Positions 1,232-33,916 of a DNA stretch of 34,804 nt are shown piece by piece; the stretch's first letter is position 1, and every line of letters begins with the position of its first letter. This DNA is from a virus. The stretch spans positions 5,143 to 39,946 of IMG/VR virus record IMGVR_UViG_3300030098_000845, one strand, 5' to 3'. The notes beneath the pieces are model-generated. The model made no database searches, was not told the origin of the DNA, and saw only the letters and a list, made by a program, of their open reading frames with translations. Position numbers and translations under genes: made by a program.

Positions 1232-1254
1232 AGCGGGGCTTGCCCCGCTTTTAT
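1232..1254 (+). terminator. Short intrinsic terminator or processing hairpin
   Basis: AGCGGGG (1232-1238) pairs with CCCCGCT (1243-1249) around a CTTG tetraloop, followed by TTTTATT. The T run is short, so it may terminate only partly and allow the downstream genes to be read at a lower level. Confidence 0.68.
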
Positions 1255-4797: not shown

Positions 4798-4934
4798 TGG
4801 CTAATTTTACTGACGCAGCAAAACGCAAAATGATAAGAGAATTACGCAAGGCTTCTAAATTACACGCAGGACAAGCTGACAAACTTGAAAAATCGTTACC
4901 TAAAAAACGAGGTAGCAAAAAACGTGGCTCTTAA
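4797..4934 (+). CDS. 45-residue basic ORF
   Basis: This small ORF starts at an ATG sharing one base with the preceding stop and ends within the next gene. It encodes MANFTDAAKRKMIRELRKAS, continues through KLHAGQADKLEKSLPKK, and ends in a Lys/Arg/Gly/Ser tail. The first 35 residues look helical and amphipathic. Tight overlaps on both sides, and the same charge character as its neighbours, support a real gene. No family was recognised. It might bind DNA or the basic proteins around it; that is inference. Confidence 0.55.
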   Translation: MANFTDAAKRKMIRELRKASKLHAGQADKLEKSLPKKRGSKKRGS

Positions 4935-8261: not shown

Positions 8262-10523
8262 ATGACGAATTTAGCCGATCTGCTGCCAGCAGGTGGCGGT
8301 CAAAACAACACAGACTTTGTAGCTGACGGTAATATCAGTTCTGGTGCGCCTGTCATTCTTACGGCGGCGGGGAAGGCTAAAGCAGTTGGCGAAGATGCTC
8401 AAAGCGCAAGTTTTGGCAGCACAGCCGATTATGATACGGACAGAGCTTACTACCCTGCGTTAGTTCACGATACAGCTAGTGGTAACGATGTTGTTTTTTA
8501 CCGAGATGCTGGAAATTCTAATTACGGAACGGCTCGTGTTGTTTCGGTGTCTGGTTCAACTTTGACTTTTGGAACAGCTGTAGTCTTTGCAACAGTGCAT
8601 TGTGATTATATTTCGGCGACTTACGATGCGTCACAAAGTAAAATTTTAGTTGTTTTTCGTGATGATACAAACAGTCAGCTGAAAGGAATTGTAGGTACGG
8701 TTTCATCAACTAGCATTAGCTTTGGCTCTGCGACTCAAATAGGTAGCTATCAGGGTTATCGGACGCACGCGGCTTACAACGCTTCTGCTAATGCTTCAGT
8801 CGTAAGTTTTAGCTATGCAGAAGGAGGGGGTTATAGTAATTATCCCTATGGCTGCGTTGCGACAATCTCAGGCACATCAGTTAGCTTTGGAACATTGGTG
8901 CGAATAGAAAGCACTGGACGCGAGATGTCTACTGCAACCAACATATACGATCCTTCAAGCACCAAAAATTTAATAATTTATCGAACAGGTTACGAGGGTC
9001 GGGCCGCTGTAGCCACTGTCTCAGGAACTTCGGTAAGTTTTGGTACTCATGTCGATTGGACAACAAACCCAAATTCTCCTAGCGCAACCTATGACTCGGT
9101 AAATGAAAAAATTGCAATTTGTTTTACAAACCTTTCAGTAAGTAGCTATGTTTATTATATCGTAGCCACTGTCTCAGGAACGTCTGTAAGTTTTGGTACT
9201 GAAGCTGTAGTTGCAAGCGAATACGGTTATGAGATAAGAGGTAGTTTTGACACTTCAGTCAATAAACACGTTACGACTTACACAAAAGATGCAGGGGCAG
9301 ATCAATATAGATTTCTTGTAGAAGGAACGATGAGCGGAACAACGATGTCTTGGACATCTCCAGTGTCGGCGGATAATGGAAACAACGCTCAGTACAGTGG
9401 CGCTCAATGCTTTGATCCTGTGGCAAATAAAAGTATTCTCGCTATTACGGACAACACTACCACGACCGCCTATATGCGTACTTACACAGCATCAGGCAAC
9501 ATTACAAACCTCACCTCAACCAACCTCTTAGGCATCGCCTCTGGCGCAATAAGCGACACAGCGACAGGCACGATAAACACTTGGGGTTCTAGGAACGAGG
9601 TGCAAACAGGTTTGACGATAGGTTCTGATTACTATGTTCAGACAGATGGAACAATAGCGGCGGGATCGACAAACATTGCTTACGATATTTCTTCACCTAC
9701 TTACACTCAAGCATTTTCAGTATCATCCCAAGATACAGCCCCAACTGGCCTAGCGTTTAATACTGATGGGACAAAAATGTTTGTCGTGGGAAACTCAGCT
9801 AACGCAATTCACGAATATGCCTTATCCACGGGGTTTGATATTTCGAGTGCTTCTTTCACGCAGAGTTTTAGTACCGCTAGTCAATCAACAGCCCCTTCAG
9901 GCATTGCTTTTAAACCTGATGGAACAATAATGTTTGTGGCTGAGGCTTATAACTCTAGCATTCTCCAGTACGCCTTGAGTTCGGCTTTTGACGTGTCTTC
10001 CGCATCCTATACTCATAACTTTAGTGTTGCGGCTCAAGAAGCAGATGTTCGCGGAGTAGCTTTCAACACTGACGGGACTGTAATGCTTATTACAGGGATT
10101 GGTGGAGATGATGTTAATGAGTACGCTTTATCCAGTGCATATGATGTATCCAGTGCTTCTTTTACCGATCTTTTTAGCATATCGAGTCAAGATGCTAACC
10201 CGCAGGATTTATTATTTAATTCTGACGGAACGACAATGTGGATTGTAGGAGATGACAATGATTCTATCTTTCAATACACGCTCTCTAGTGGTTTTGATGT
10301 ATCTACCGCTTCCTATGCTTCAGTAAGTTTTTCTGTGGCTGGTCAAGATACCTCGCCAATGGGAATGGCGTTTAATTCTGACGGAACAAAACTCTATGTG
10401 GTTGGAGGGCAAAATGATTCTGTCTATCAATACGCGACAACTGCCACTTCTTTTACAACGGACCATCTTATAGGCAAAGCAATCACAGCCACACAGATTA
10501 ATATCAAGGATTACACAGGATGA
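8262..10523 (+). CDS. Fibre/receptor-binding protein 1: seven-unit propeller plus inserted DGT repeats
   Basis: The product is 753 residues. The N-terminal module MTNLADLLPAGG with a following (A/V)xG(A/K)PVIL stretch is shared with the next two genes and is probably an anchor. Residues about 60-425 hold seven repeats of about 45-50 residues (aromatic-D...K(I/V)xVxYxD...GTVSGTSVSFGT), suggesting a seven-bladed beta-propeller. A capping module (TNLTSTNLLGIASGAISDTATG, then GSDYYVQTDGT) follows. Five further repeats of about 51 residues, (P/G)xG(L/M)AFN(T/S)DGTKMFVVG, interrupt the cap, which resumes at GKAITATQINI. The DGT repeats resemble NHL/YVTN-type propeller units. It very likely binds a host surface structure. 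It overlaps the next gene by ATGA. Confidence 0.68.
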   Translation: MTNLADLLPAGGGQNNTDFVADGNISSGAPVILTAAGKAKAVGEDAQSASFGSTADYDTDRAYYPALVHDTASGNDVVFYRDAGNSNYGTARVVSVSGSTLTFGTAVVFATVHCDYISATYDASQSKILVVFRDDTNSQLKGIVGTVSSTSISFGSATQIGSYQGYRTHAAYNASANASVVSFSYAEGGGYSNYPYGCVATISGTSVSFGTLVRIESTGREMSTATNIYDPSSTKNLIIYRTGYEGRAAVATVSGTSVSFGTHVDWTTNPNSPSATYDSVNEKIAICFTNLSVSSYVYYIVATVSGTSVSFGTEAVVASEYGYEIRGSFDTSVNKHVTTYTKDAGADQYRFLVEGTMSGTTMSWTSPVSADNGNNAQYSGAQCFDPVANKSILAITDNTTTTAYMRTYTASGNITNLTSTNLLGIASGAISDTATGTINTWGSRNEVQTGLTIGSDYYVQTDGTIAAGSTNIAYDISSPTYTQAFSVSSQDTAPTGLAFNTDGTKMFVVGNSANAIHEYALSTGFDISSASFTQSFSTASQSTAPSGIAFKPDGTIMFVAEAYNSSILQYALSSAFDVSSASYTHNFSVAAQEADVRGVAFNTDGTVMLITGIGGDDVNEYALSSAYDVSSASFTDLFSISSQDANPQDLLFNSDGTTMWIVGDDNDSIFQYTLSSGFDVSTASYASVSFSVAGQDTSPMGMAFNSDGTKLYVVGGQNDSVYQYATTATSFTTDHLIGKAITATQINIKDYTG

Positions 10524-12064
10524 CGAATCTCTCTGATCTTTTTCCTGCGGGTGCAGGTAAGCAAGTAAGTTTCACCGCCAGTGGTAACGTCACCAGCTCT
10601 GGTAAGCCTGTCATATTGAATAGCGATGGGACAGTTACCGAAGTGTCGGGTTCTACTACGTCAGCGGCAATAGCGGATGTTCAAGACATATGGGCTTCAA
10701 CCACAGAGTATAACTATAATGCGATTGTTTATGCGTCAACTGAGGATAGGTTTGTTGCTATATCCTCAAATAACAATACCTCTTCATACCCAGAATATTC
10801 TATAGGAACAATGTCAAGTGGCTCAATCACTTGGGGAACGCCAGTTGTTATTACAAGTAATGCAGTAGATTGGCTTGATGCTATTTACCACTCAAACACT
10901 GGCAGATTAGTATTGATTTATACAATCTCTTCTCAAGCTCAGTGCATAATCGGCACATTTGGCTCTAGCCCCTATACCACAATTTCTTGGGCGGGTCAGA
11001 CTCAGGCTTATTCACAAACAACAAGTTATCTGTACCATCAAATTGAAGAATGGCCCGGAACTGACAAGTTTGTTATTGCGTCTTTATTTGTAGACACAGG
11101 CACAAGTTATCGGGGGATTATGCAAGTTGGCACAGTAGGTGGAGCAAGCTCCCTAAGTTTTGGTTCAGAGGCTTATTTTACAAGTGGTCTTATAACCAAT
11201 TATCCCAGTTTTGCACAGTTAATGTACGATACTGCAATTACAGATCAATTTTTTATAGTGTATCAAGTCGCTAATTCATCCGTGGCTTGCCAAGCATTAA
11301 CGGTGTCAGGAACAACAATTACGGGAACCACTCCTCAAACCATAGTTACGACAACGCTTGTGAATAACTGTCTAGGAGCGGCTTGGGATGCTGATGAGAA
11401 AAAAGCCTTAGTGATGTATGGAGTAAGTCCAAGCAGTGGTACAGGTATTGCAACAACTTCATTGGTAGTTGTAAGCACTAGTTCTGGATCGACAACAGTA
11501 AATACGCCAATAGCTTTTGTCAGTGCTTCTAGTTCTAATCAATACGCAGGGCGTTATTGGAACAGCCTTGTTTATGATTCTTTTAGAAAAGTTTTTGCTA
11601 TTTCTTACTTGGCTGATAATGCGGCCCAATATGTAACACAGGCTACAATTTCAACAACCACACCCGTTCTTTCTGGAACGCATACGACTAACGGTGGTAT
11701 TAGCTCGCAAGCCGCAACAACTGACGCTACGTTTGATACAACCTCAAACCTTGTTGTATATATGGCTTGCAATGGGAATGATGCAAATAAAGTGGGGACT
11801 TATGTGTACACCCCAGAAGGAAGCGGAACAAACCTCACCGCAACTAACTTCCTCGGCATATCAGACGCAGCCATCTCAAACGCAGCCACCGGAAACATAA
11901 CAATTAAAGGCGGCATAGCAGCTACAGGTCTAAGTTCGCTAACTCCGGGCAGTGATTACTATGTTCAGATAGATGGAACATTTGGCACTTCTGCGGGTGA
12001 CCCTAGCGTTAAAGCGGGTAAAGCCCTGTCAGCCACAGCAATTAATTTGGAGTACACATCGTGA
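10520..12064 (+). CDS. Fibre/receptor-binding protein 2: single seven-unit propeller
   Basis: The product is 514 residues and is the simplest of the three paralogues. The anchor is MTNLSDLFPAGAGKQVSFTA with GKPVILNSDGTV. Seven degenerate repeats (about 60-430) follow, with units starting IVYAST, AIYHSN, QIEEWP, QLMYDT, AAWDAD, LVYDSF and ATFDTT. An uninterrupted capping module (GTNLTATNFLGISDAAISN, then PGSDYYVQIDGTFGTSAGDP and KAGKALSATAINLEY) completes the protein. It has more Ser/Thr and fewer conserved SGTSVSFGT cores than its neighbours, as if it had diverged furthest. ATG 10520 overlaps the previous stop (ATGA), and its stop overlaps the next GTG. Its probable role is adhesion to the host surface; the receptor is unknown. 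Confidence 0.68.
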   Translation: MTNLSDLFPAGAGKQVSFTASGNVTSSGKPVILNSDGTVTEVSGSTTSAAIADVQDIWASTTEYNYNAIVYASTEDRFVAISSNNNTSSYPEYSIGTMSSGSITWGTPVVITSNAVDWLDAIYHSNTGRLVLIYTISSQAQCIIGTFGSSPYTTISWAGQTQAYSQTTSYLYHQIEEWPGTDKFVIASLFVDTGTSYRGIMQVGTVGGASSLSFGSEAYFTSGLITNYPSFAQLMYDTAITDQFFIVYQVANSSVACQALTVSGTTITGTTPQTIVTTTLVNNCLGAAWDADEKKALVMYGVSPSSGTGIATTSLVVVSTSSGSTTVNTPIAFVSASSSNQYAGRYWNSLVYDSFRKVFAISYLADNAAQYVTQATISTTTPVLSGTHTTNGGISSQAATTDATFDTTSNLVVYMACNGNDANKVGTYVYTPEGSGTNLTATNFLGISDAAISNAATGNITIKGGIAATGLSSLTPGSDYYVQIDGTFGTSAGDPSVKAGKALSATAINLEYTS

Positions 12065-14625
12065 GCAATTTATCTGATTTACTCCCCGCAGGAGCGGCAG
12101 CAAAACAACTGACCTTTACTGACAGTGGTAGCGGTATAGCCACCAAGAAGCCTGTGATACTGAACAGTGATGGGACGGTTGCTGAAGTAGGGGCAACGAC
12201 TCTCCCTATAGCAGTAGGTTCAGCAATAGATTTTAGTGGAGGGGCTTCTACTGGTAAGGGTTATTACGCATCGGTTTGCTATGACACGGCTAACGATAAA
12301 ATATTTATTGCTTACGCAGATGCTGGAAATTCTAATTACGGAACAGGGGTTGTTTGTACGGTTTCTGGTACTACTTTATCCGTAGGAACCCCGGTTGTGT
12401 TTGAAGGCTCATCTACAACTTGGACTTCTTGTTGTTTTGATTCTAGTAATAATAAAGTTTTTGTCGCTTATTCAAACTCTGGCGGTCAAGGTGAGGCAAA
12501 AGTCGCTACAATTAGTGGAACCAGTGTTTCTTATGGAACGTCAAGTCGTATAGACGGAGGAAACCCATATAAAGCAAGTTACATTGAAGCTGTGTATGAT
12601 GCTAACGCAGGTAAGGTTTTTACCGCTTATTACGATAGCTACAATGTTGGTGCTTATGGAACGGTACATACCATTTCAGGCACAGGTTTCAGTTCTGGAA
12701 GTCCTGCTAGTTTTGGCAGTTATTACTATCCTTTAGGCATAACCTATGACTCAACTGCTCAAAAAATAATTACGACCATACAAACATCGGCAAATACTTT
12801 GTTTTCTGTACCTGTGACTATCTCTGGAACAAATTGGTCTTATGGAACTTATTTAAGTATCGGCCCTTGTAATGGAAGCGCTGATGTTTCGTATGATCCT
12901 GTACAAGATAAAACCCTGCAATACTTTAATGATTCAACCGCTAATACAGGAAAAGTAGCGGTACTTTCTTTGTCGGGTACGACTTTATCAAGCGGATCGC
13001 AAGTTAATAATACGGGGAGTAGCGAAGGTTACATCAAAGCTGTTTACAACGCAGCATCAGCAAGTCATGTAATTATGTGGAGTACAGGTTCGGCAGGAAA
13101 AGCTAGAGATGTCACCATTAGCGGAACGACCCCAACACTTAACGCAACAACCACTGATTGGTCTAGTGATTATTTAGATTACATTGGTGCAGCGTATGAT
13201 GAAGATCAAAAAGTAACAGTAATCGCCACGGCTAATGATGTTGCTCCTAAATGCTACGCCATTGCTTATCAAAGTTCTTATGAAGGAACCAATCTTGACG
13301 CTACTAATTTCGTAGGCGTAGCCGACTCTGCAATATCAGCCAGTGCTGCGGGTAGCATAATCGTGCAGGGTGGTACGGTGACAGGCGTATCAAGTGGTAC
13401 TGGCGTTTCTGCGGGAACTGCTGTTCAGTATTCGGCAAGTAACTTGGCTGATGTTTATGCGGCTGACTCGGTGTATGACTCTACAAACAATAAGGTTGTT
13501 GTCGTTTATGACGGTGCAGGTTCAGGTGCAGGTTACGGTATTGTCGCTACAATTAGTGGAACCTCGGTAAGCTACGGCTCTGCCGTTCAATACAGTGGAG
13601 GTAATGCACGTATGAGTCAAGTAACTTACGACAGCACTAATCAACGTGTCGTTGTAGCTTATTCAGACGGAGCAAATAGCGGATATTTAACAGTTGCGGT
13701 AGGGACAGTATCAGGAACTTCTATTTCGTGGGGTACTCCTGTTGTCGCCGACAGTACGGTTAATGATTTTTATATTGGTATTGATTTTGACATCAATGCA
13801 GGAAAGGTTTTAATTATATGGAAGGATAATAGTACAGCGTATAACTACAGCATTGTAGGAACCGTGTCAGGCACTTCAATCAGCTTTGGCACTAGAGTAT
13901 TAGTTGATGGTTCTTGGGGTTATCAAATGATTGGCGGTTTGACGTACGATGCAAATGCACAAAAGCATTTGTTCTTTAGGCCCAGAACAAGCGGAACGGT
14001 TGCTGAGGGTTATGTGGGTACAATTTCAGGAACAAGTGTCAGTTGGGGTTCTGCCACCTCTGCAACAACTACTCAATCCTTATCAGTGGGTTGGGGTTCT
14101 TACGATTCAAACGCACAAAAAGTAGTTGTAACCTACAGAATCGGTGCGGGGGGTATGGGTTCACAAGTAGCTACCATTTCAGGAACATCTGTTTCGTTTG
14201 GAACCCAAGTAGTAGTTGACGCAAGTATTAACCCTGACTTTACAGCGAACTATTACGACTCTACCGACCAGACTATTGTGGCTTTTGGTCGAGCCACCAA
14301 CTATTACGGATATATCGGAACCGTTTCGGGGACATCTATTTCTTGGTCTTCAGCTTCAACTCTTTTGTTAGATGCAGCTTTTGGTTACGGACTAGGCACT
14401 CCAGCGTATGATGCCAATGCGGATAAGGGGTTAATTCTTTTTGCTAATGCGGGAGACTCTGCGGCTGAAAGTGCAGTGACAACTGCGGGTGATCTACCCC
14501 TGACAGTAGGAACCAAATATTACGTCACCACTTCTGGTGGCTTTTCAAGTTCAGCAGGTGACCCTAGCGTCAATGCAGGATTAGCAATTTCAACAACATC
14601 ATTATTACTAAATGGAGACTCATAG
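12061..14625 (+). CDS. Fibre/receptor-binding protein 3: two seven-unit propellers
   Basis: The product is 854 residues from GTG 12061 (GTGA overlap). It shares the MSNLSDLLPAG anchor with GVA-like and KPVILNSDGTV stretches. Two blocks of seven repeats are visible, about 73-410 and 455-815. Units begin with YDS, YDA or FDS and end in TISGTSVSYGT-type strands. Between them lies the first half of the cap (GTNLDATNFVGVADSAISAS), and after the second block its other half (LPLTVGTKYYVTTSGGFSSS, AGDPSVNAGLAISTTSLLL). The second propeller thus sits inside the capping module at a different point from the insertion in paralogue 1. It shares a 27-base exact match with paralogue 1 (8504-8530 and 12318-12344). 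It is probably a host-binding protein. Confidence 0.68.
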   Translation: MSNLSDLLPAGAAAKQLTFTDSGSGIATKKPVILNSDGTVAEVGATTLPIAVGSAIDFSGGASTGKGYYASVCYDTANDKIFIAYADAGNSNYGTGVVCTVSGTTLSVGTPVVFEGSSTTWTSCCFDSSNNKVFVAYSNSGGQGEAKVATISGTSVSYGTSSRIDGGNPYKASYIEAVYDANAGKVFTAYYDSYNVGAYGTVHTISGTGFSSGSPASFGSYYYPLGITYDSTAQKIITTIQTSANTLFSVPVTISGTNWSYGTYLSIGPCNGSADVSYDPVQDKTLQYFNDSTANTGKVAVLSLSGTTLSSGSQVNNTGSSEGYIKAVYNAASASHVIMWSTGSAGKARDVTISGTTPTLNATTTDWSSDYLDYIGAAYDEDQKVTVIATANDVAPKCYAIAYQSSYEGTNLDATNFVGVADSAISASAAGSIIVQGGTVTGVSSGTGVSAGTAVQYSASNLADVYAADSVYDSTNNKVVVVYDGAGSGAGYGIVATISGTSVSYGSAVQYSGGNARMSQVTYDSTNQRVVVAYSDGANSGYLTVAVGTVSGTSISWGTPVVADSTVNDFYIGIDFDINAGKVLIIWKDNSTAYNYSIVGTVSGTSISFGTRVLVDGSWGYQMIGGLTYDANAQKHLFFRPRTSGTVAEGYVGTISGTSVSWGSATSATTTQSLSVGWGSYDSNAQKVVVTYRIGAGGMGSQVATISGTSVSFGTQVVVDASINPDFTANYYDSTDQTIVAFGRATNYYGYIGTVSGTSISWSSASTLLLDAAFGYGLGTPAYDANADKGLILFANAGDSAAESAVTTAGDLPLTVGTKYYVTTSGGFSSSAGDPSVNAGLAISTTSLLLNGDS

Positions 14626-24900: not shown

Positions 24901-24928
24901 GTTTGAAAGAGGTTTTGGCAACCGCTAA
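21914..24928 (+). CDS. Large internal virion protein with EF-hand-like loop and long coiled coil
   Basis: The product is 1004 residues. Residues 19-30 (DLSGDGKVTRKD) fit a 12-residue EF-hand or dockerin-type calcium loop, with D19, S21, D23, T27 and D30. A Met/Pro-rich stretch (about 104-130) and an acidic region lead to an AGGPVQRFANGG motif (about 264-275). A long, highly charged coiled coil (about 380-720) follows, rich in Arg, Glu and Gln. A second AQGGPVVKLANGG motif lies near 793, followed by a C-terminal helical part. The layout suggests an elongated protein packaged in the head and ejected. It lies one base after the stop of its neighbour and overlaps the next start by one base. No peptidoglycan hydrolase motif is seen. 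Confidence 0.6.
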   Translation: MSVLQRPMFLKKGGEVFPDLSGDGKVTRKDILMGRGVIPQNKNRGGLMRHDERTIRNVDDEIYRIAPKTHSRGRERMDAREEYARDLREKDYLRAQMNRLANGGQPMPMMDPAMMQPPMPMLPAPAPEQQVQLTEASAAQQGEALGQEYLDEMMTGIDTADSTEELIDAIRGDDRSLQDRYDELANFVGERDASATPESVLTLVQPTIMMTEQGAMDSGIGELMQGITGEVEMETEMGAPTPMGQGVGELMMSESVEEVIPEMNAGGPVQRFANGGTPDLSNILDQYQSLTAPSTADEFSSMVDARMPIYQRLLGDTDQTKQDLQSKLYFDIAQAGLNLASGTDPRTGQSMAGKPLASQIASAAQPVAASAGAGARELRNIERAAAAGALQSAESAEAARIGAARGIQADLFKSAAGLARQLEGQDFTARENERNRKFQRGEGESDRSLQERLATERNSLTERLFDKETARRLDEILKQGGVRKELINEEGEVQIGLIDANLVAQLKRDGKLNEYEIGLIEARKNAEEDLYAVRGQEERATERLRIAARAGLQDDQQAHALEIQSRDIAENRRQFDANLELLTQRLKLDQNALSDLSKFRQSQQTIAAQNADSLEYLREWDVFFQEKGINLQEEAQKFGMNLQEQAAELAEQQQAFRQRYQDAQLKLQQELEKAAAILDVENLSLDAYQATTDRITALSSMQTDYTKIFGGSQEGIMRGILSNTEALQRFGLGQSSPDEAQQIITSMEFLSRPTMSYDPRTGAQVYSNPILPSAVVEAARLYEQNVGPMFAQGGPVVKLANGGDPQMTEFERRMMRQPRSSIEPTPPPEGMIVDETLSFEEATGPISGLKRGLNVFGGTGREFGLPVSAPYMEVDEASEQLRAVSNMTQRFIRNSATSGRPLALEIEALAAEIAQPGAFRMDETTLVKLQTMRNQLKEVQSLAASVLEAPQAFDQKVVIGAREDLSSLTPLLDNYDEIIKSYQIGLGKLDKPDPAMFERGFGNR

Positions 24929-27900
24929 TGGCTTCTCCTTTTGACAACAATCCGCAGATTCAGTACGACCTTCGTGCCGCACAAATCGAAGGACTAAGCG
25001 CAGCGGACATTGCTCAATACGTTTCTCAAAGGCGTAACTACGATTACGACGCGGCCCGCAAAGCAGGGTTAACCGATGAGGACATTATTCAGTACAACGT
25101 AGCTAATGTCAGTGATCAAGGCGCTTATGGTGCTGCCTTTGAAGAATTTGCGACTACGACTCCAGTAGGTTTAGCTAGTGGCGCGGTGGGAACAACAGTC
25201 GGTGGCATTGGCGCACGGACCGGGGCGCGTGTTGGTGCGGGCATTGGCGGTCGCGTAGGCGGTGCGCTAGGCGCTGTTGGTGGTCCAATGGGTGCATTAG
25301 CTGGAGCAGGGGTTGGCGCTACGGTTGGTGCAGGACTCGGTTTTCTTACCGGAGGGTTGATTGGTCTAATAGGCGGCACAGCGGCTGCCGCGATACCTGC
25401 TCGTGCGGGTATAGACAAACTTAAAGAAACTTTAGATCTTGGTCGTCAAGACGAGCAGTTGCTTCCCTCCGCACAAAAGGGCCGGGTCTTCGGCGAAACT
25501 GCCGGGTTTACCGTTGGCGCACTAGCCTCGCCTTTTGCTTACAGCCGTGCAATTGAAAGTGCTGCTAAGACAGGTTTAGGACGAGCGTTGGGCTTGGGTG
25601 TCCGAGGAGAAATCCAACAAGCTGGCACAGGCGCTTTTGTACCTAACGTAAGTCCTGTGAATTTGGGTTCTACTTTTTTGTTTGAGAACGCAGCAAATAA
25701 TGTTGGTATGGCAAATAGCCTCGCAAAGGCCGTGCGAAATTTAGAACAAAGCGCAACTGCGGCGCGTGCGGCCCGAGCAAGTTCCCCTAAACTTGGCGTC
25801 ACAGGTGCGTTAGCCGCAGGTACGGCAATGGGCGCAGCCGGAGCAGTCGCTGAAACTCTTGATCCGGGTAATTTGTATTTACGTATTCCGGCTGAAATCG
25901 CAACTGGTTTTTCTCCACTTGGTATTGCTTATGCCATTGGTAGACGAGAAGCGGCGCGTGCGGCAGCCGCTAGTGAAGGGCGGGCTGAAAACCAAGTGGT
26001 TAAAGTGCTGACACGTATTGTAGATGACGTTGACGCAGGACAACAAGCTGCTTATGAACAAAGAATGGCTCGTTATAACGCTACTCCCGCAGCAGAGAGA
26101 GGGCCTAAACCTCCTGAGTATCAAGGGGTGGACACAGAGGAGATTGCCCGAAGATTAGAGTCCGATGACGTGGGCATTCCCAAAGAGTTGTTAGGCGAAA
26201 AAAACTTGCCGCCGTTTTCAGGTTACGAAAAAAGTGGCGATGAAATTATGAAAATATTTCAAGCTACATTAGCGGATATGTCGGGATCGCCCGCTCTTGA
26301 GCGTGGTAAAAAGCAATTGCTTCGCCAATCGACCGAAGCTGTCAAACAGATGGGTGCCATTCTAGACAACCTTGCTCAGTTTGACAGTCCCGCCGTTATG
26401 CAAGCGGTGAGCCTTAGTGCAGAAGAATATTATAGGCAGCTTATGGAAGCGGCTCTTAATGGCAGCATTGCACGCGCTATGCAACAAGGTGAGCGATTAG
26501 CTACTAAAGGACAAGACGGTCGGCGTGTTAAACGTGTGATAGAAGATGGCACTTTTAAATATGTACCGGAAGGTGATGCGTTAGGTGATGCGGATAGGGC
26601 AGCCGCTATTTTAATTGAAAGCGGAATAGAACGACCTTACAAATTAGTTGAGCAAGCAGAGAATAGAGCGTGGTCAAAAGTAGATAAGCGTATAGAAGCG
26701 CCGGTAAACAAAATATATAAATTTTGGTTAGAAAAAACTAATCCTTCACGAGGTGGTTCGCAAGCAGCCGAAAACTTATATATTAGGTATCTCCAAGATT
26801 TTATGAAAGAATCGATAGACCCTCTTTATCGTGACGCTTACAAGAAACAACTGGCTGAAATTGAAAACAACTTTGGACAGCTTACTAGCTTACGCGGTCA
26901 AAAAAGTGTTTTAGAACGTCAAATTAGAGTTTTAAACAGCGAATTGAAAGAAGCTGAAACAACCGCACAACGAGAGTTGGCCGAGCTTGGCCCACGTCCA
27001 AAGGAAGAACAACCAACAGGCATTGCATTGCTTGATATGACAGATGAGCAAATAGATGCGCTCAATCAATATGACTTTAAAGTCGATGAAATTAGAACAG
27101 GCGTTGACCAAATAGAGCGCAACTTGAATACAAAGATTACTGAACTTGGTGGCGTTGAAACTTCGATTTCAAACCTCGACAATCTAGTACGAAGTTCGAA
27201 TCAAATTATCGATGACATTGTAAGCAAGACTTTTGTGCCGGTCGGCCGATTGTTAGAGTTTCGATCTCAAATGTTAAAAAATGCGCGAATAACGGGCGCT
27301 ACAGAGGCCGGAGCAAGTCAATCAGGTTATTACGGTTCAATGGCACGTCGGGCTTTAGATGACATAATGACGATTGGTGGACAATTTGATAAGTCTGGCG
27401 CTATCCCTACAAGAGAATCTTTAGAACAACTTGGTTTCACGGCCAAAAACATTGAAGCTGTAGAAAAACAAATACAAGCCATTACCAATGCGCGGGCCTT
27501 GTCTTATGCTAAAAACGAAGTTTTTGACAGAGCGTTTGGTGGAACACTCCTTGCAAAAGATTCCAGCGGCGCAAAACGAGTGGACCCTTTAGAGCTTGCT
27601 CGTAAATTCATTGTTACATCGGGTTCGATGACTGCACAAAATTTTAAACAGTTAGATGATGCAATGGATTTTGCTATTGCAAACGTGACGCCCACGCAAG
27701 CGAACGAGCTACGCGCTTTGAAACAATATGAGCTAGATGGCGCAAAAGAAATAATTTTGCGGGACGTGTTTGCTAACCGAGAAGGTATTATCCGACCTAA
27801 AGGAAAACAACGCCAAGAGATAAATGTAGATGCGTTAGATCAAGTCTTAAATAAATATCAGAAAGTTTTAGCACTACCGGGCATGAAATCGGTGGAAGAA

Positions 27901-29151
27901 GATTTGCGAAAAGCAGCTACTCTGCAAGCAGAGCTAGATAAGTATCGGGATGATATTGTCGGCGCAGGTTTCAAACTGGACAAAAGTAAACGGCGTGTGG
28001 GCGTGCAGCGTGCCACGGGACCTGCCCGAGATTTTGAAGGTATTTATAACGGGCCGCAGAAAGCCGACATTGACGCTTTTCGTATGTTTTTAGACGTACC
28101 GGAAAGACCCGTCGAAGCCATGCTTGCGATTTTGGATGGAGGTAAACGCACTAATGCACCCGAAGCAAGTCTAAGAGGTTTGGCAAAATTAGCCAAAAGA
28201 GCCGACACAGGAGAGTTTGGAACTCGTCCGGGTAACGCCGTAGGAGGTCTTAAAGAAGTTGTTCTTAATGCGGCGATTGAAAAATCACGCAACCCCAACA
28301 CTGGAATTATAGACTTTGCCGCGTTTGGAAATTTTCTAATCTCACCCCTTAATCGCAACCAGAAAAATCCTAAAACTATTTTAGACGTGTTAGTTGAAGA
28401 AAATGTGGTAGACGACCAGTTTCGCAACGGTTTAGTTACCATTACTGATCTCGGAGAACGGATTAACAGAAGTCTCATGCGCGGACAAACTCCCGAGGGT
28501 GACGAGGCATTTATTCAAGAAGTTATGGAAAACAACATGTTTATTTCAGCCGGTGCAAGAGCAATGGGCGCGGGCATATTTAGTAATTTGATAAGAAGAG
28601 CGCAAGAGTTAATTGGTTTTCGGGGGTCGTCAGGGGAGCTTGTTTCTGCTGGTTTAGGTGCTAAATTAGCAAGTAGATATTTAGAAAAGTTACCTAGCGA
28701 AGCAGCTTTGGCGTTGATGATAGAAACCGCGCAAGACCCAAAAGTCGCTGCCCGCATGATGCGACAAATACGCAATCCGAAAGACGTGCGAGAGTTTCAC
28801 CTTGCCTTACAACCTCAATTAGAAACTATTTTAGGTTCAACCACTTATCAAAATATTGCTGAATACTTACAGTCTCCTGAATTTGAAATGGAAGCGACGG
28901 AAACAGTTGAAGAAACGCCACTAGCAGCAGCACCTGCACAGACCCCCTCTGAACCTTTAGTAAACGTGCCGGAGCCTATCCCGGCCATGCCTGTTCCCCC
29001 TCCCCCTCCGGTCAATGCGACTGTGCCATTACCACAGTTACCCGTGCCGGGGGGTTCTTCCAACCGCTCCCAGTACGCGGCGATGTTCCCGTTTGATAGT
29101 GTGAGCGAAGTGATACGCACTCAAGAAGGCATAGGGTCGTTGATGCAATGA
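24928..29151 (+). CDS. Very large internal/ejection protein
   Basis: The product is 1407 residues, the longest gene here. Residues 12-59 hold two imperfect copies of a 24-residue motif, YDLRAAQIEGLSAADIAQYV and YDYDAARKAGLTDEDIIQYN, of the A-x-x-A-G-(L/Y)-(S/T)-x-x-(E/D)-I-x-x-Y type seen in phage internal proteins. Residues 80-157 are Gly/Ala-rich and hydrophobic, with GxGxxxG spacing suggesting membrane-spanning helices. A second hydrophobic stretch lies near 290-337. The middle is helical with a coiled coil (about 650-770). The end is proline-rich and finishes with SQYAAMFPFDSVSEVIRTQE and GIGSLMQ, a terminal motif I recall from marine podoviruses. It probably forms the DNA-ejection channel. 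Confidence 0.64.
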   Translation: MASPFDNNPQIQYDLRAAQIEGLSAADIAQYVSQRRNYDYDAARKAGLTDEDIIQYNVANVSDQGAYGAAFEEFATTTPVGLASGAVGTTVGGIGARTGARVGAGIGGRVGGALGAVGGPMGALAGAGVGATVGAGLGFLTGGLIGLIGGTAAAAIPARAGIDKLKETLDLGRQDEQLLPSAQKGRVFGETAGFTVGALASPFAYSRAIESAAKTGLGRALGLGVRGEIQQAGTGAFVPNVSPVNLGSTFLFENAANNVGMANSLAKAVRNLEQSATAARAARASSPKLGVTGALAAGTAMGAAGAVAETLDPGNLYLRIPAEIATGFSPLGIAYAIGRREAARAAAASEGRAENQVVKVLTRIVDDVDAGQQAAYEQRMARYNATPAAERGPKPPEYQGVDTEEIARRLESDDVGIPKELLGEKNLPPFSGYEKSGDEIMKIFQATLADMSGSPALERGKKQLLRQSTEAVKQMGAILDNLAQFDSPAVMQAVSLSAEEYYRQLMEAALNGSIARAMQQGERLATKGQDGRRVKRVIEDGTFKYVPEGDALGDADRAAAILIESGIERPYKLVEQAENRAWSKVDKRIEAPVNKIYKFWLEKTNPSRGGSQAAENLYIRYLQDFMKESIDPLYRDAYKKQLAEIENNFGQLTSLRGQKSVLERQIRVLNSELKEAETTAQRELAELGPRPKEEQPTGIALLDMTDEQIDALNQYDFKVDEIRTGVDQIERNLNTKITELGGVETSISNLDNLVRSSNQIIDDIVSKTFVPVGRLLEFRSQMLKNARITGATEAGASQSGYYGSMARRALDDIMTIGGQFDKSGAIPTRESLEQLGFTAKNIEAVEKQIQAITNARALSYAKNEVFDRAFGGTLLAKDSSGAKRVDPLELARKFIVTSGSMTAQNFKQLDDAMDFAIANVTPTQANELRALKQYELDGAKEIILRDVFANREGIIRPKGKQRQEINVDALDQVLNKYQKVLALPGMKSVEEDLRKAATLQAELDKYRDDIVGAGFKLDKSKRRVGVQRATGPARDFEGIYNGPQKADIDAFRMFLDVPERPVEAMLAILDGGKRTNAPEASLRGLAKLAKRADTGEFGTRPGNAVGGLKEVVLNAAIEKSRNPNTGIIDFAAFGNFLISPLNRNQKNPKTILDVLVEENVVDDQFRNGLVTITDLGERINRSLMRGQTPEGDEAFIQEVMENNMFISAGARAMGAGIFSNLIRRAQELIGFRGSSGELVSAGLGAKLASRYLEKLPSEAALALMIETAQDPKVAARMMRQIRNPKDVREFHLALQPQLETILGSTTYQNIAEYLQSPEFEMEATETVEETPLAAAPAQTPSEPLVNVPEPIPAMPVPPPPPVNATVPLPQLPVPGGSSNRSQYAAMFPFDSVSEVIRTQEGIGSLMQ

Positions 29152-29309
29152 ACGAAGTAAAGATCACACTGCGGGGCGAAGAAGCCATGCACTTTTTAGA
29201 ACGTCTTGTTCGAATCGAGGAAGATCTAGCAGAGTGTGTAGAGTTTATTCGAGAGCAGAAAAAAAATCAGACTAGCCAATCCCGGAAGTCTTCTCCCAAA
29301 ACAGTCTGA
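29148..29309 (+). CDS. 53-residue ORF at the end of the virion operon
   Basis: ATG 29148 overlaps the preceding stop (ATGA), and the frame runs to TGA 29307-29309. The product, MNEVKITLRGEEAMHFLERL, continues VRIEEDLAECVEFIREQKKN and ends with a Ser/Lys tail. The first 40 residues look like a beta strand followed by an acidic amphipathic helix. Its last 43 bases run through the 3' end of the minus-strand helicase gene. No family was recognised. Coupling to the large upstream gene supports expression. Confidence 0.5.
   Translation: MNEVKITLRGEEAMHFLERLVRIEEDLAECVEFIREQKKNQTSQSRKSSPKTV
29259..29291 (-). terminator. Candidate terminator for the minus-strand helicase gene
   Basis: Read on the minus strand, AGACT (29291-29287) pairs with AGTCT (29273-29269), with an inner CC/GG pair, followed by GA and a T8 tract (29266-29259). 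The hairpin overlaps the last codons of the helicase and lies inside the convergent 53-residue ORF. The stem is short, so strength is uncertain. On the + strand it lacks a T tract. Confidence 0.45.
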
Positions 29310-30724
29310 GCCAAGTTTATCTTGCTGCGTAATGCTTCCAAGATGCGCTCATCTATCGTGTCCGGGCTGACCAAATCAATGTAAGTGACCGACTTCTCCT
29401 GTCCTATTCTGTGTGCCCTGTCCTCGGACTGTAAGCGAGACTCCAGATCGTAACTATTGTTGTAGTAGATGACTGTGTTGGCAGCGGTCAGAGTAATACC
29501 GTAGCCTCCTGTTTTAGGATGTCCGACAAAAAAACGTAACGGAGAGTCAACTTTTTGAAACTCCACGACAATATTTTGACGGTCATTTTGCTCGGTAGGT
29601 CCATGATAAGTAGCCACGCTGTCCTCACCATATACCGCAGCTATCGCTTCACGGATCGCTTCGATGTCATGTGTGTAAGTCGCCCAAATCAGGGCCTTCC
29701 CGCTGACCTCTTCAATAATCTCCATCAACTGACTGAGGCGGTTATTTTTCAGTGGAGTGATCGGCGCATCGTCATCCGGCTTCACAAAACCACAAGTAAT
29801 CTGCTGCAAGCGCATAATCTGCGTCAAAATACTGGCGGTAGTCACTATTTCTCCGTTGTCCAAATGCACTAAGGCTAACTCCTTCATCTGCCGGTAAGCT
29901 TTAGCTTGTTCCTCGGTCAACGGCACATTGCGCCGGGTGTATATTTTATCCGGTAAATCTAAACAATCTTCTTTCAGTACCCGACAACAAAATTTATCGA
30001 GTTTATTGCCCAGTTCATCCAAACGTCGGTAGCCCATCAGGTGCGGGTAATGACCGCCTCCCGGTCTGGGCCGTCTTTGCATCACGGCGTACCGCGCCTG
30101 AAACGCAAAAAAGTTGTCATACCCGAGAGCCTTGTCTGCCAAAAAGTCGCACTGGCTAAACAGGTCCAGAGGGCTTTTAGTAATCGGGCTGCCGGTCAGG
30201 ACTCGCCTGTATTTAGCTTGGCGGCCGCACTTAACAATAGCCTTGGTCCGGGCGCTTTTTCGATTCTTTATGGTGGTTGATTCGTCCACGATCATCATGT
30301 TGTTGGGGTTTAGTTCTAAAAACCGCAACGCCGTGGTCTGTCCTTTTTGCGTGGACAGTGCTTCTACGTTCATCACAAGAAAAGCCAGAAACTTGGTGTC
30401 CCGGTTCTTGCGTAAAGCGACTTGAGCTATTTCGTTTTTAAACTTCTCTGTCCAGTTCGGCTGCCATCTCACAACTCTACGGTCTATCGAATCTGGCAAA
30501 TGTCTCGGGATCTCTTGTTGAATCCAGTTGTCAAAGACTCCTTTAGGGGCAACGATTAGGACGGTATCAATCTCGCCTTTTTCGTACAACGCGCCTATGG
30601 AATCGATGGCGACCTTGGATTTACCAGTTCCCATCTCCATAGCCAGAAAATAAAAGTGCTTGGCCCACGAGTCTTTCCATGCGCTTTCTTGGTGTTTGTA
30701 AGGTTCGGTTTTAAAGGTATACAT
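29267..30724 (-). CDS. SNF2-type superfamily 2 helicase
   Basis: The product is 485 residues. Motif I is MGTGKSK (31-37), motif Ia LIVAPKGVFDNW (56-67) and motif II DEST (147-150) in place of DEAH. Motif III is TGSPITKSP (177-185). GGYGITLTAANTVIYYNNSY (406-425) and QSEDRAHRIGQ (432-442) are motifs V and VI of the SNF2/Rad54 class. The Q-x-x-D-R-x-x-R-x-G-Q box is decisive. It is shorter than chromatin remodellers, as phage members usually are. It would translocate on duplex DNA, perhaps in replication, recombination or displacing host proteins. ATG 30724 is chosen because the promoter at 30781-30754 predicts a transcript start near 30747, which excludes the in-frame TTG at 30748. It is the only minus-strand gene. 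Confidence 0.88.
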   Translation of the reverse strand: MYTFKTEPYKHQESAWKDSWAKHFYFLAMEMGTGKSKVAIDSIGALYEKGEIDTVLIVAPKGVFDNWIQQEIPRHLPDSIDRRVVRWQPNWTEKFKNEIAQVALRKNRDTKFLAFLVMNVEALSTQKGQTTALRFLELNPNNMMIVDESTTIKNRKSARTKAIVKCGRQAKYRRVLTGSPITKSPLDLFSQCDFLADKALGYDNFFAFQARYAVMQRRPRPGGGHYPHLMGYRRLDELGNKLDKFCCRVLKEDCLDLPDKIYTRRNVPLTEEQAKAYRQMKELALVHLDNGEIVTTASILTQIMRLQQITCGFVKPDDDAPITPLKNNRLSQLMEIIEEVSGKALIWATYTHDIEAIREAIAAVYGEDSVATYHGPTEQNDRQNIVVEFQKVDSPLRFFVGHPKTGGYGITLTAANTVIYYNNSYDLESRLQSEDRAHRIGQEKSVTYIDLVSPDTIDERILEALRSKINLAQTVLGEDFRDWLV

Positions 30725-30738
30725 TTTTTTTCTTTTTA

Positions 30739-30751
30739 CACTTGACAAGTG
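30739..30751. promoter_or_regulatory. 13-bp perfect dyad, candidate operator
   Basis: CACTTG-A-CAAGTG is a perfect inverted repeat with a one-base centre at 30745. It covers the predicted start point of the minus-strand helicase transcript and lies 15 bases before its ATG, so a bound protein would block that promoter. It matches no operator I know. The embedded TTGACA is discussed separately. Confidence 0.4.
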
Positions 30752-30753
30752 GG

Positions 30754-30781
30754 ATTATATAGGAGAATATGCGGAAGTCAA
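30754..30781 (-). promoter_or_regulatory. Sigma70-type promoter for the helicase gene
   Basis: On the minus strand, TTGACT (30781-30776) is followed after 16 bases by a perfect TATAAT (30759-30754). The predicted transcript start is near 30747, giving a leader of about 23 bases before the ATG at 30724. It points to use of host RNA polymerase. Confidence 0.65.
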
Positions 30782-30798
30782 GGGTATAAAAATCCCTT
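30780..30798. repeat. Inverted repeat AAGGG-N9-CCCTT
   Basis: It lies between the minus-strand promoter and the ribosome-binding site of the + strand operon. The spacer contains TATAAA (30785-30790), which could be a + strand -10 element, but no good -35 precedes it at the right distance. It could be an operator or the 5' leader hairpin of the replication operon. Confidence 0.3.
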
Positions 30799-30819
30799 TA
30801 ATCACGAAGAGGAAAACAT

Positions 30820-31395
30820 ATGAACGATTTGTTAGATGAAATGGAAGCCGATATGGAAGCTGCTTCTGAATTCAATGATGTTACCACGGACGGTCTGAAA
30901 ACAGTTAGTAGTCTTGCTCAAGAAGTTTCCAATTGGGAAGGCAAGGTTGCTGAACTTGAAGAACAACTCAAAACTGCGAAAGCAAAATTACTCGAACTTA
31001 CGGATCGTGATCTCCCGGATTTGATGGCGGAGGTCGGCATAACTAATTTTACGTTAGCTGACGGCAGTAAGTTGGAGGTCAAACAAACTTATGGCGCGAG
31101 GATTCCTGTAATGTACAGGGATGCGGCTTTTGCGTGGTTAAAAGAAAAAGGGCACGACGACATTATTAAAAATTTAGTTTCTGTGCCGTTTGGACGTGGT
31201 GAAGATTCCCGTGCTACTGATTTTATAAATCTTGCTCAAGAGAATGGGTATGTGCCTGATCAGAAAAAAGAGATACATCCGCAAACTTTGAAGGCGTTTG
31301 TGAAAGAACAGTTGGAAAAAGGACAGGAAGTACCAATGGATTTATTTGGGGTTTTTACAGGTCAACGAGCATCAATTAAAAGGGGTTCAAAATGA
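30820..31395 (+). CDS. Coiled-coil phage protein, first gene of the replication operon
   Basis: The product is 191 residues. AAGAGG (30807-30812) sets the ATG. The acidic start (MNDLLDEMEADMEAASEFND) leads to a coiled coil at about 35-65 (NWEGKVAELEEQLKTAKAKL). A compact conserved part follows, LPDLMAEVGITNFTLADGSK, then YRDAAFAWLKEKGHDDIIKN and HPQTLKAFVKEQLEKGQEVP. The pattern ADGxxLExKxxYxAxIP with a late LxxFVxExLExGxxVP is one I recall from phage proteins next to SSB-like and helicase genes. It may be a replication accessory or single-strand-binding partner; no enzymatic residue is obvious. It overlaps the SSB-like gene by ATGA. Family and role are uncertain. Confidence 0.58.
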   Translation: MNDLLDEMEADMEAASEFNDVTTDGLKTVSSLAQEVSNWEGKVAELEEQLKTAKAKLLELTDRDLPDLMAEVGITNFTLADGSKLEVKQTYGARIPVMYRDAAFAWLKEKGHDDIIKNLVSVPFGRGEDSRATDFINLAQENGYVPDQKKEIHPQTLKAFVKEQLEKGQEVPMDLFGVFTGQRASIKRGSK

Positions 31396-32219
31396 GTAAC
31401 AAGAAAACAGTTGCAGAAAAAAAAGCAGAGGAAGCTTCAACAGCATTAGCCAACGTCGCAATGTTTGAGGAAGATGCCGGTGAGGGTGTCGCAATGGGAA
31501 GGGAAGACGTACAACTGCCCAGAATAAAAGTCTTGCAAGGTAATAAGGTGGGTGAAGGTCAACAGAGTATGCCCGGAATTGCGGAAGGTGATTTTTATAA
31601 TGACGCGACCTTGGACTTTTTCAAAGGTTCAGATGGCATTAGAGTGATTCCTTGCGTTTATCAACGTCGTTTCTTACGTTGGCCCGCAGTGCGTGGCACG
31701 TCCCCTCCAATAGAGGAGTATTTGCCAGAAGGTCCGATGCCTACTACGGTCAGAGACGTTCAAAACAAAGATATTATTACTCAAGAGATTGATGGTAGTC
31801 CGTGTAATAACGGCGAATACTTGGAAGAAACGCATAATCATTTTGTGTTACTACTGCTTGAGAACGGCATGACGCAAATGGCGTGTCATAGCATGAAGAA
31901 AACCGGGTTGAAGCCTTCTAGGGCATGGAACTCACTGGTGGCTAGTCGTGTTGCAGAAGGCAAGAATGGTCCGTTTACTCCCGCAAGGTACAGCCACGTA
32001 TATAAGTTGGAAACTTTTGTACGGGAGAAAGATGGTAACCGATGGGCGCAAGTCAATGTTACGTTGGATTCTTCGTTAATTGAGGACAATCGCGTAGACC
32101 TTTATAAAAAGGCTAAAGATTTTGCCAACGCCGTTTCGGCCGGTGAGGTTTCGGTCAAACATGAGGGTGAAGAAGAAATCCCTAAAACTGGCAACTCGGA
32201 GGGCGATATACCGTTTTAA
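31392..32219 (+). CDS. Putative single-stranded DNA-binding protein with SSB-like tail
   Basis: The product is 275 residues. A Lys/Glu/Ala-rich N-terminal arm is followed by LPRIKVLQGNKVGEGQQSMP, then GSDGIRVIPCVYQRRFLRWP and a beta-rich body with conserved Trp, Tyr and Phe (RFLRWP, SRAWNSL, YSHVYKLET, NRWAQVNVTL) suited to base stacking. The C-terminus is acidic and ends EGDIPF. That closely resembles the DDDIPF tail that E. coli SSB uses to recruit partners, and the acidic aromatic-ended tail of T7 gp2.5. AGGGG (31381-31385) sets the start. It is followed after 3 bases by the primase. The role as a phage SSB is inferred from tail, position and composition. Confidence 0.66.
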   Translation: MSNKKTVAEKKAEEASTALANVAMFEEDAGEGVAMGREDVQLPRIKVLQGNKVGEGQQSMPGIAEGDFYNDATLDFFKGSDGIRVIPCVYQRRFLRWPAVRGTSPPIEEYLPEGPMPTTVRDVQNKDIITQEIDGSPCNNGEYLEETHNHFVLLLLENGMTQMACHSMKKTGLKPSRAWNSLVASRVAEGKNGPFTPARYSHVYKLETFVREKDGNRWAQVNVTLDSSLIEDNRVDLYKKAKDFANAVSAGEVSVKHEGEEEIPKTGNSEGDIPF

Positions 32220-32222
32220 GCT

Positions 32223-33761
32223 ATGGAAAATGCAGAGATTTTTTCACAAATCTTTGACGGTTTAAAAGCGGCATACGGTACTTATCGAATTGATCGGAAA
32301 TCAAGCAATGGTAAAAGTGTTGGAAAAGCGCAAGTTGTAAAGGCGGAACGAACACTAGAGCAATGGCAGGGGCATCTGTCTGGTAAAGGAGATGCCCTCG
32401 GTATTATCCCCATTAACGAGGACAACAAATGTGTTTGGGGTTGCATCGACATTGACACGTACCCGCTAGACCATAAAGAACTCATAACAAAAATAAGGAA
32501 GCTCGATTTGCCGCTCGTCGTGTGTCGGAGCAAGAGCGGCGGAGCGCACTGTTTTTTGTTCACCACTGAGTGGATAAGTGCGGAGCAGATGCAGGAAACA
32601 CTGCAACACATTGCAGCCTCGCTAGGATACGGGGGCTGCGAAATTTTTCCTAAACAAGTTAAGTTGTTCTTGGACCGTGGAGATGTAGGTAACTTTTTAA
32701 ACATGCCGTACTACGACGCTGAAGATGGGCTTCGTTATGGCATCAAAGACGATGGTCAATCGGCCACGTTAGAAGAATTTTTTGACATGCATAAGACTTA
32801 CGCTCAGACACTTGAGCAAGTAAGCAGCCTGACCATTGAACCAGATACTTCGGTTCCGATTAAAGATGGTCCGCCGTGTCTACAGATACTGGCACGAGAA
32901 AAGATATCAGAAGGAGGCCGGAACAACGGCCTTTTCAACTTAGGGGTCTATTTACGAAAAGCGTATCCAGACTCTTGGGAAAGTGAGTTTTTAAACTATA
33001 ACGCACAATACCTTGACCCACCTTTAGGTCTGGATGAGGTCAACATCGTAGCCAAGCAGCTACAGAAAAAAGACTATGCTTACAAATGCAAGGACACACC
33101 GATCTGCAACCACTGCAACGCGGAGCTATGTAAGACACGGAAGTTTGGTATAGAGGCGGCTGTCTCTGGCGTGGTTATCGCTAACCTACGCAAGTACAAC
33201 TCAAGTCCGCCTATCTGGTTTGTAGATGTCGGCGCACGGCCCTTGGAGCTTGAAACCGATGCTCTGATGAACCAGAAAGCGTTTCAACGCGCTTGTATTG
33301 AGCAGTTAGATTTTATGCCACGCACACAAAAGATGGATGCTTGGGAAGGTAGGATCAACGGATTGTTGCAAGAGATGTCGGAGCATGACGGCTCGATTAT
33401 TGAAGTGTCGCAGGACGCGAGTATCGAAGGTAAGTTCTACGATTTTTTAGAAGAGTTTTGTACTGGCATGCAGTTAGCGGAATCAAAAGAAGAAATTCTA
33501 TTGCGTCGGCCGTACACGGACGAAGAGGAAGGTCGCACGTTTTTTAGGCTTAAAGACTTCGAGGGCTTTTTAAAAAAGCAGCAGTTCTACGACTATAAGT
33601 CACATAAGATCGCGCAACGGTTACGGGATATTAACGGCAGCGCAGTAACCATAAAGATTAAAGGTAAAGCGGTGCGAGTCTGGGCTATCCCGGCTTATGA
33701 CAACCCAATGGTTTCTATCAACGTGCCTGACATGGGTCAAGCCGAGGAGGCCCCGTTTTGA
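32223..33761 (+). CDS. Archaeo-eukaryotic-type primase (AEP) with Cys cluster
   Basis: The product is 512 residues. The catalytic core shows DID (D76, D78) in WGCIDIDTYP, then RSKSGGAHCFLF with H109, then CEIFPKQVKLFLDRGDVGNF, the three AEP motifs in order. The IDxD/SKSGGxH/EIFPKQ combination is the one I associate with TOTE-type primase domains. Residues 228-288 (ISEGGRNNGLFNLGVYLRKA) look like a helical primase C-terminal module. C289, C295, C298 and C303 form a C-x5-C-x2-C-x4-C cluster followed by RKFGI, a likely metal site. The rest (about 320-512) holds no recognised helicase motif. It ends in EEAPF, recalling the SSB tail of the preceding gene. It would make primers for phage replication. 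Confidence 0.8.
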   Translation: MENAEIFSQIFDGLKAAYGTYRIDRKSSNGKSVGKAQVVKAERTLEQWQGHLSGKGDALGIIPINEDNKCVWGCIDIDTYPLDHKELITKIRKLDLPLVVCRSKSGGAHCFLFTTEWISAEQMQETLQHIAASLGYGGCEIFPKQVKLFLDRGDVGNFLNMPYYDAEDGLRYGIKDDGQSATLEEFFDMHKTYAQTLEQVSSLTIEPDTSVPIKDGPPCLQILAREKISEGGRNNGLFNLGVYLRKAYPDSWESEFLNYNAQYLDPPLGLDEVNIVAKQLQKKDYAYKCKDTPICNHCNAELCKTRKFGIEAAVSGVVIANLRKYNSSPPIWFVDVGARPLELETDALMNQKAFQRACIEQLDFMPRTQKMDAWEGRINGLLQEMSEHDGSIIEVSQDASIEGKFYDFLEEFCTGMQLAESKEEILLRRPYTDEEEGRTFFRLKDFEGFLKKQQFYDYKSHKIAQRLRDINGSAVTIKIKGKAVRVWAIPAYDNPMVSINVPDMGQAEEAPF

Positions 33762-33916
33762 AACTGAGTCCTAACGAGGTAGTACGCAAGAAACTGGAAG
33801 CCGATATCAAAGCCTATTTAGCTAAAGGTGGAACGATCACTAAAGTTCCTGAAGGATGCGGCAAAAAGCTTGCTGTTGATTTCGTAACGAGAAAGAAACA
33901 GGAAATCAATGTTTAG
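33758..33916 (+). CDS. 52-residue protein with LAKGGTITKVP motif
   Basis: TTG 33758 overlaps the primase stop (TTGA) and lies 7 bases after a perfect AGGAGG (33745-33750), which decides the unusual start. The product, MKLSPNEVVRKKLEADIKAY, continues LAKGGTITKVPEGCGKKLAV and ends DFVTRKKQEINV. A helix followed by (F/Y)L(A/S)(K/R)GGxxxx(I/V) recalls the RNA-polymerase-binding segment of SutA-like regulators; this is a weak motif-level likeness. It overlaps the next gene by 8 bases. It could be a small transcription or replication modulator. Confidence 0.55.
   Translation: MKLSPNEVVRKKLEADIKAYLAKGGTITKVPEGCGKKLAVDFVTRKKQEINV

Follow-up and report, generated by a model that had tools for sequence, protein, structure and literature searches.

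In a 34,804-nucleotide stretch of viral DNA (IMG/VR virus record IMGVR_UViG_3300030098_000845, positions 5,143 to 39,946; hereafter the window), a gene for a helicase of the SNF2 family lies on the minus strand beside a replication operon on the plus strand. We propose, with a probability of roughly 0.72, that this gene has been flipped in place and is fired together with the replication operon from a shared two-way promoter of ~40 bp. A preliminary description of the same DNA had seen in the gene a self-contained unit, either a moron or an early-expressed gene under separate control.

Position and orientation of the helicase gene

The genes concerned are these (aa, amino acids):

29267 to 30724, minus strand: SNF2 helicase gene, 485 aa from an ATG at 30724, with its stop at 29267
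30820 to 31395, plus strand: gp33-like gene (Pam3 gp33, DUF7307; PF23984, E 2.2e-33), the first gene of the operon
31392 to 32219, plus strand: gp34-like gene (Pam3 gp34; PF23977, E 7.7e-38)
32223 to 33761, plus strand: primase gene (phrog_21866 primase, E 8.4e-97)

The helicase was described as the lone minus-strand gene of the window, and this holds, as the sole other minus-strand open reading frame (ORF) in the longest-ORF map encodes 77 aa (4685-4918). In a near-complete relative of 56.7 kb (G001) the helicase is the sole large ORF on its own strand, with seven more of 75-97 aa. Three small adjoining minority-strand ORFs of 75-97 aa at one locus of that genome (L053, G001:C1:42258-43155) perhaps form a second reverse cassette.

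Relatives were fetched by means of the helicase: 38 from IMG/VR, a further 80 with an alignment (some contigs recur) and 15 records of named phages. For the count of orientations 10 records were skipped (duplicates and pieces derived from the window or from whole genomes); the other 137 include four without a scorable helicase ORF. The 133 scored records comprise 115 in which the helicase is divergent, 10 in which it is co-directional, one that is co-directional at a distance (ct3Et533, where gp33/gp32 lie far upstream of the helicase on the same strand) and seven without gp33 in view. The 115 loci include the window, and some IMG/VR contigs are present twice among them (for example L008/L067, L015/L073 and L024/L083); distinct sets contain 83 loci for the facing promoter cores and 85 for the stem-loop. 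In all marine-set relatives with a neighbor in view (115/115), gp33 or gp32 lies upstream on the opposite strand. Three of the seven records without gp33 in view are HTVC027P, HTVC023P and 023Pt, in which the record ends fall between helicase and operon; these too are divergent, since their other ends carry gp32/gp33 reading away. A scan with a gp33 query returned two loci only, both in contigs of the helicase set.

The gene is read as turned round in place because other phage groups have the helicase, gp32, gp33 and gp34 in a co-directional row. The gp31-gp34 block of Pseudanabaena phage Pam3, of Yuavirus LKO4 and of others holds the same helicase beside homologues of gp32, gp33 and gp34. All four genes of that block run in one direction, whereas in the window the helicase alone is reversed and gp32 is not found between helicase and gp33. 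The order helicase-gp32-gp33-gp34 occurs in 9 of the 10 co-directional cases (Pam3, LKO4, RHph_I65, FoX7, Pluto, Gekk3-15, CN2, Sonora and Maja), and gp32 was not found in the tenth, Rostov 6. All 10, among them Pam3, Yuavirus LKO4 and Bordetella CN2, fall outside the clade of the window.

Pelagiphages of the HTVC023P type (HTVC027P and HTVC023P), compared over the helicase-gp33 region, resemble the window in that the helicase lies upstream of gp32/gp33, reads away from them and converges with its 3′ neighbor. In HTVC027P and 023Pt, gp32-gp33 still run forward and the helicase alone is reversed. HTVC027P differs from the window in that its helicase is 46% identical and gp32 comes first, and gp32-first loci have no leader stem-loop. 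The available text of PMC9599517 does not describe the orientation of the helicase; it is visible in print, as the legend of Figure 3 states that ORF orientation is drawn. From these comparisons, the marine clade that includes the HTVC023P-type pelagiphages most likely carries the helicase inverted in place.

A proposed interlocked two-way promoter

The gap between the helicase and gp33 contains the following elements:

30776 to 30781, minus strand: −35 of the helicase promoter, TTGACT, with a spacer of 16
30754 to 30759, minus strand: −10 of the helicase promoter, TATAAT; the whole promoter matches at least 10 of 12 positions in 18 of 25 distinct loci
30742 to 30747, plus strand: −35 of the operon promoter, TTGACA, inside a 13-bp dyad; GTCAA is kept on the helicase strand
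30765 to 30770, plus strand: predicted weak −10 of the operon promoter, GAATAT, after a 17-nt spacer
30739 to 30751, no strand: 13-bp dyad CACTTGaCAAGTG, at chance level and not conserved beyond GTCAA

The near-consensus helicase promoter of the preliminary description was recovered, with 11 of 12 matching positions, and ranks first among the window's 40 promoter-like sites. Since this number of sites does not exceed that in shuffled sequence, the weight of the helicase promoter comes from its position and conservation. On the helicase strand, TTGAC (30781-30777) faces GTCAA (30742-30746). Of the 83 distinct loci, 37 have an exact facing pair at 34-44 bp; 40 rounds of dinucleotide shuffling yielded 0.125 on average and never more than 1. 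The span is 41 bp in 15 loci, 40 in 10, 37 in six, 38 in three, 36 in two and 34 in one. The operon-side promoter matches at least 9 of 12 positions in 23 of the 25 distinct loci of the first set.

The element of ~40 bp would thus hold two opposed promoters of the sigma70 type, each with its −35 beyond the −10 of the other, and predicted starts at ~30747 (minus strand, helicase) and ~30777 (plus strand, gp33) lie 30 bp apart. Because each −35 lies past the other promoter's −10, host RNA polymerase presumably occupies the element in one direction at a time. Helicase and replication operon would then be fired from one site and in the same phase. The architecture is well supported by sequence comparison, whereas polymerase exclusion and protection of the messenger RNA (mRNA), like transcription itself, are inferred. 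The claim that the helicase has a promoter of its own therefore stands as far as the start signal is concerned; separate control finds no support, because that promoter is interlocked with the one of the replication operon. Sigma70-type signals would also suit the lack of a phage polymerase in HTVC027P, which, according to the accessible part of PMC12753301, encodes no RNA polymerase and depends on that of its host.

As far as the available part of PMC12825309 goes, bidirectional promoters of E. coli share a −10, have 18, 10 or 23 bp as common distances between their starts, and can show repression of one direction by strong activity in the other. The element described here is similar in its two predicted, divergent starts and overlapping elements and in that one polymerase would exclude the other. 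It differs in having separate −10s with the −35s nested outside them, and in predicted starts ~30 bp apart. As the predicted −10s (30754-30759 and 30765-30770) do not overlap and so are not shared, the element is a variant of the E. coli type rather than a member of it. A literature search found no account of this two-way promoter, nor of the leader.

The facing TTGAC/GTCAA arms could also be read as an operator at which a dimeric protein, either repressor or activator, controls both helicase and operon in place of promoter geometry. Inverted arms are kept in the same 37 of 83 distinct loci, and the window bears an additional 13-bp dyad at one arm, as an operator would have it. However, the distance from arm to arm varies (34, 36, 37, 38, 40 and 41 bp), which is more in keeping with promoters whose spacers vary than with a rigid site for a dimer, and single arms occur: in 18 loci one arm, and in 13 the other, stands without its partner. 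Two promoters accommodate the varying spans and single arms better, and an operator is improbable here. The dyad itself, which the preliminary description placed at the predicted start of the helicase, is present, although the window has seven such perfect 6-1-6 dyads and the relatives L008, L010, L012 and L013, at 86-89% protein identity, keep the GTCAA core alone. A conserved operator dyad was ruled out on these two grounds, its chance-level frequency in the window and its loss in close relatives.

A covarying stem-loop in the operon leader

Two further elements lie between the promoter and gp33:

30780 to 30798, plus strand: stem-loop AAGGG-loop-CCCTT, at the place where the 5′ end of the mRNA of the replication operon is predicted
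30796 to 30808, plus strand: conserved leader motif CTTTAATCACGAA, found at this site, once each, in six of the seven records searched

If the two-way promoter works as proposed, the operon transcript alone would begin with a conserved stem-loop. This structure is followed by CTTTAAYCACGAA, just ahead of the ribosome site and found once at this place in six of seven records. A phage promoter motif of the repeated kind was considered and set aside, as the leader motif is single in each record. Stems at the same place in relatives read AAGGC/GCCTT, AAGAC/GTCTT, AGTGAC/GTCACT and others. Covariation was assessed in 16 aligned loci, with near-identical ones excluded and three (L032, L034 and L035) left out as too diverged. 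Both sides have changed in five of six pairs, 93.8% of cells are paired, and the covariation score is 0.501 compared with 0.204 after shuffling (0/500) and at most 0.179 when the stem is slid. Among these loci there are four G-U pairs on the operon strand as against one of the reverse case, which hints weakly that the RNA of the operon is the strand that matters.

A stem-loop at the expected distance occurs in 45 of 52 gp33-first loci (51 anchored), as against 8.0 in shuffled sequence (standard deviation 2.3, maximum 15). Its start is mostly 9-11 nt past the predicted −10, the 5′ end itself being a prediction. Stem-loops at the 5′ terminus reportedly stabilize E. coli mRNAs, in work attributed to Emory (1992) and Bouvet (1992) and cited in PMC3997798. 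The stem-loop described here is like those in lying a few bases from a predicted 5′ end and unlike them in that the structure covaries across a phage clade and that its stabilizing effect is argued from the analogy. By that rule the leader stem-loop is most likely a 5′ guard that would prolong the life of the mRNA. The bases of the stem vary freely while its position stays fixed, as suits the structural protection of an mRNA end.

A serious but less probable alternative is that the stem-loop serves as a translational operator, bound by gp33, gp34 or another phage protein, or as an attenuator. The conserved CTTTAAYCACGAA between the stem-loop and the ribosome site speaks for this alternative. 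Against it, the letters of both stem and loop vary while pairing is kept, unlike most protein operators, and the T run after the stem is short (TTT), unlike that of a terminator. In several loci of the group L099-L111 and L123 (among them L099, L100, L101, L105, L111 and L123), the helicase −35 TTGAC overlaps a stem of the GGCGGTT...AACCGTC type, apparently a different leader stem at the same place.

Points that weigh against the proposal

Several observations count against a helicase flipped once and fired from a shared promoter. The exact facing pair is absent from 46 of the 83 distinct loci, and 16 of the 115 segments have no N-terminal anchor, are perhaps misplaced and were scored as misses. 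GTCAA occurs without a facing TTGAC in 18 loci, so the pairing is not obligatory. The −10 of gp33 in the window (GAATAT) is weak, one script chose another site there, and the favored start sites are predictions from the DNA letters. None of the 33 gp32-first loci (25 anchored) has such a hairpin, compared with 4.0 after shuffling, and a guard hairpin would therefore be dispensable in some relatives. A tree was computed from 53 of 92 de-duplicated helicases, with every second unnamed divergent one kept and two without a neighbor in view excluded. Its shortest reconstruction takes two orientation changes, and the long branches of HTVC023P, ct3Et533 and Rostov 6 limit the inference of a single flip. 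One change is forced by well supported branches, so that a single flip is possible.

The 3′ side of the helicase gene

On this side the following features were noted:

29259 to 29309, minus strand: hairpin with a T8 tail, which in this genome may be an intrinsic terminator for the helicase mRNA
29148 to 29309, plus strand: convergent ORF of 53 aa, overlapping the 3′ end of the helicase by 43 bp
24928 to 29151, plus strand: gene for a late virion protein of 1407 aa, convergent with the helicase

The T8-tailed hairpin was confirmed as a stem-loop at 29309-29267 (−17.4 kcal/mol, z −2.0) followed by T8 at 29266-29259, and it does lie within the 53-aa ORF, as had been described. It is not among the sites reported by a terminator scan of the window. 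At least seven T in eight after the helicase stop are found in 8 of the 108 loci that have sequence past that stop, the window included. A family-wide conserved terminator is ruled out by this count, and one in this genome is plausible. Homologues of the 53-aa ORF occur in L008-L012 only, among L002-L045, and the phage collection gave no match to it. The 1407-aa product, presumably a virion protein from its place behind structural genes, has homologues that are convergent with the helicase in relatives too.

The preliminary description had suggested that late virion transcripts reading through would be antisense to the helicase and could shut it off. Within 400 bp, 81 of the 108 loci have a convergent ORF of 100 aa or more; in 54 of these 81 it overlaps the helicase, by exactly 4 bp in 27. 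T-rich tails are rare, so that read-through is plausible, and late antisense transcription across the helicase is plausible, from the arrangement of genes, in most relatives. Silencing by it as the virion genes come on is rather unlikely: 27 of the 108 loci have no convergent ORF in range, in 16 of these the helicase is closely followed by a co-directional ORF of 100 aa or more, and overlapping stops amount to ordinary genome packing.

Nature and timing of the helicase

The protein belongs to the SNF2 family, with SNF2 and helicase C domains that both exceed the curated cut-offs (PF00176, E 1.5e-25, 90.3 bits, cut-off 24.9; PF00271, E 7.2e-13, 49.2 bits, cut-off 23.5), and matches phrog_62 (DNA helicase, E 2.1e-125). 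The longest-ORF version runs from a TTG start (29267-30748, 493 aa). The N-terminus MY.FKT.P is kept among relatives, and for this reason the likely start is placed at the ATG at 30724. GTGK and DE are invariant across homologues, from which ATPase and translocation activities are predicted. Matches to solved structures are to the general SNF2 family only, and the single weak Rfam match, inside the helicase gene, is far under the gathering score. A defense helicase was discounted, as PADLOC matches (ZorD, DpdE and similar) come through the shared SNF2 part and the context is replication. The gene is most likely a core replication gene of the Pam3 gp31 type. By analogy with its family and from its context, the protein most likely acts by remodeling replication forks or intermediates of recombination.

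That the gene is a moron, or an early unit with a control of its own, is very improbable on this evidence. The near-consensus promoter and possible terminator would give the gene the outfit of such a unit; the promoter, however, is conserved yet interlocked with that of the operon, and the T-rich tail is confined to the few loci counted above. A moron would vary in presence among close relatives, whereas place and orientation here are constant in 115/115 loci, a set fetched via the helicase in which absence is not directly countable. In the accessible text of PMC9599517, the helicase QGZ17868.1 (HTVC027P gp87) is one of five conserved marker proteins of 82 HTVC023P-type genomes, and helicases are counted among the core genes of these 82. 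The G + C content at third codon positions (GC3) is replication-like (0.55 for the helicase, 0.50 for the primase and 0.53 for UvrD). The closest cellular relatives are 26-30% identical, in a scan with one query. Recent gain from a host is ruled out by place, conservation, GC3 and the weakness of the cellular relatives.

Early expression is disfavored in the light of RNA sequencing (RNA-seq) of HTVC027P, a distant relative (helicase 46% identical). In the part of PMC12753301 available, its early genes are all of unknown function, a set to which an annotated helicase would not belong. The main text of that paper, looked at for expression timing, does not name HTVC027P gp87.

Other features of the window

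Between the primase and UvrD helicase genes, a 52-aa ORF (33758-33916, plus strand) matches the SutA RNA-polymerase-binding domain (PF20661, 33.9 bits, cut-off 29.3), and its counterpart in L010 scores 37.9 bits. From this match it could be a phage-borne polymerase modulator within the replication operon.

Elsewhere, three consecutive plus-strand ORFs of 753, 514 and 854 aa (8262-14625) have similar N-termini (NLADLLPAGG, NLSDLFPAGA and NLSDLLPAGA) and many SGTsvsFGt-like repeats, and are probably duplicated tail or receptor-binding proteins. The plus-strand ORF at 6529-7254 contains repeated ATGxVGs-like units and apparently encodes a virion protein of low complexity. Directly past the ORF at 681-1226 lies the strongest simple terminator-like site in the scan (1232-1249, plus strand; seven pairs, six of them G-C, then TTTATT).

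Biological implications

A more tentative extension of the proposal, and an unlikely one for now, is that one inversion of the operon's first gene left a nested two-way promoter that sets a ratio: polymerase would work one way at a time, and the 5′ stem-loop on one of the two mRNAs would tilt the balance. If true, this would fix the stoichiometry of helicase to replisome without a regulator protein. The antisense question is answerable from public data, since PMC12753301, in its available part, describes the RNA-seq libraries of HTVC027P (PRJNA1253180) as directional; no strand option is given there for the counting of reads. The helicase may serve as an example of a gene that was flipped yet kept in place, and the conserved two-way promoter with its covarying leader stem-loop would offer a concrete site at which replication genes may be paced by the host polymerase alone.

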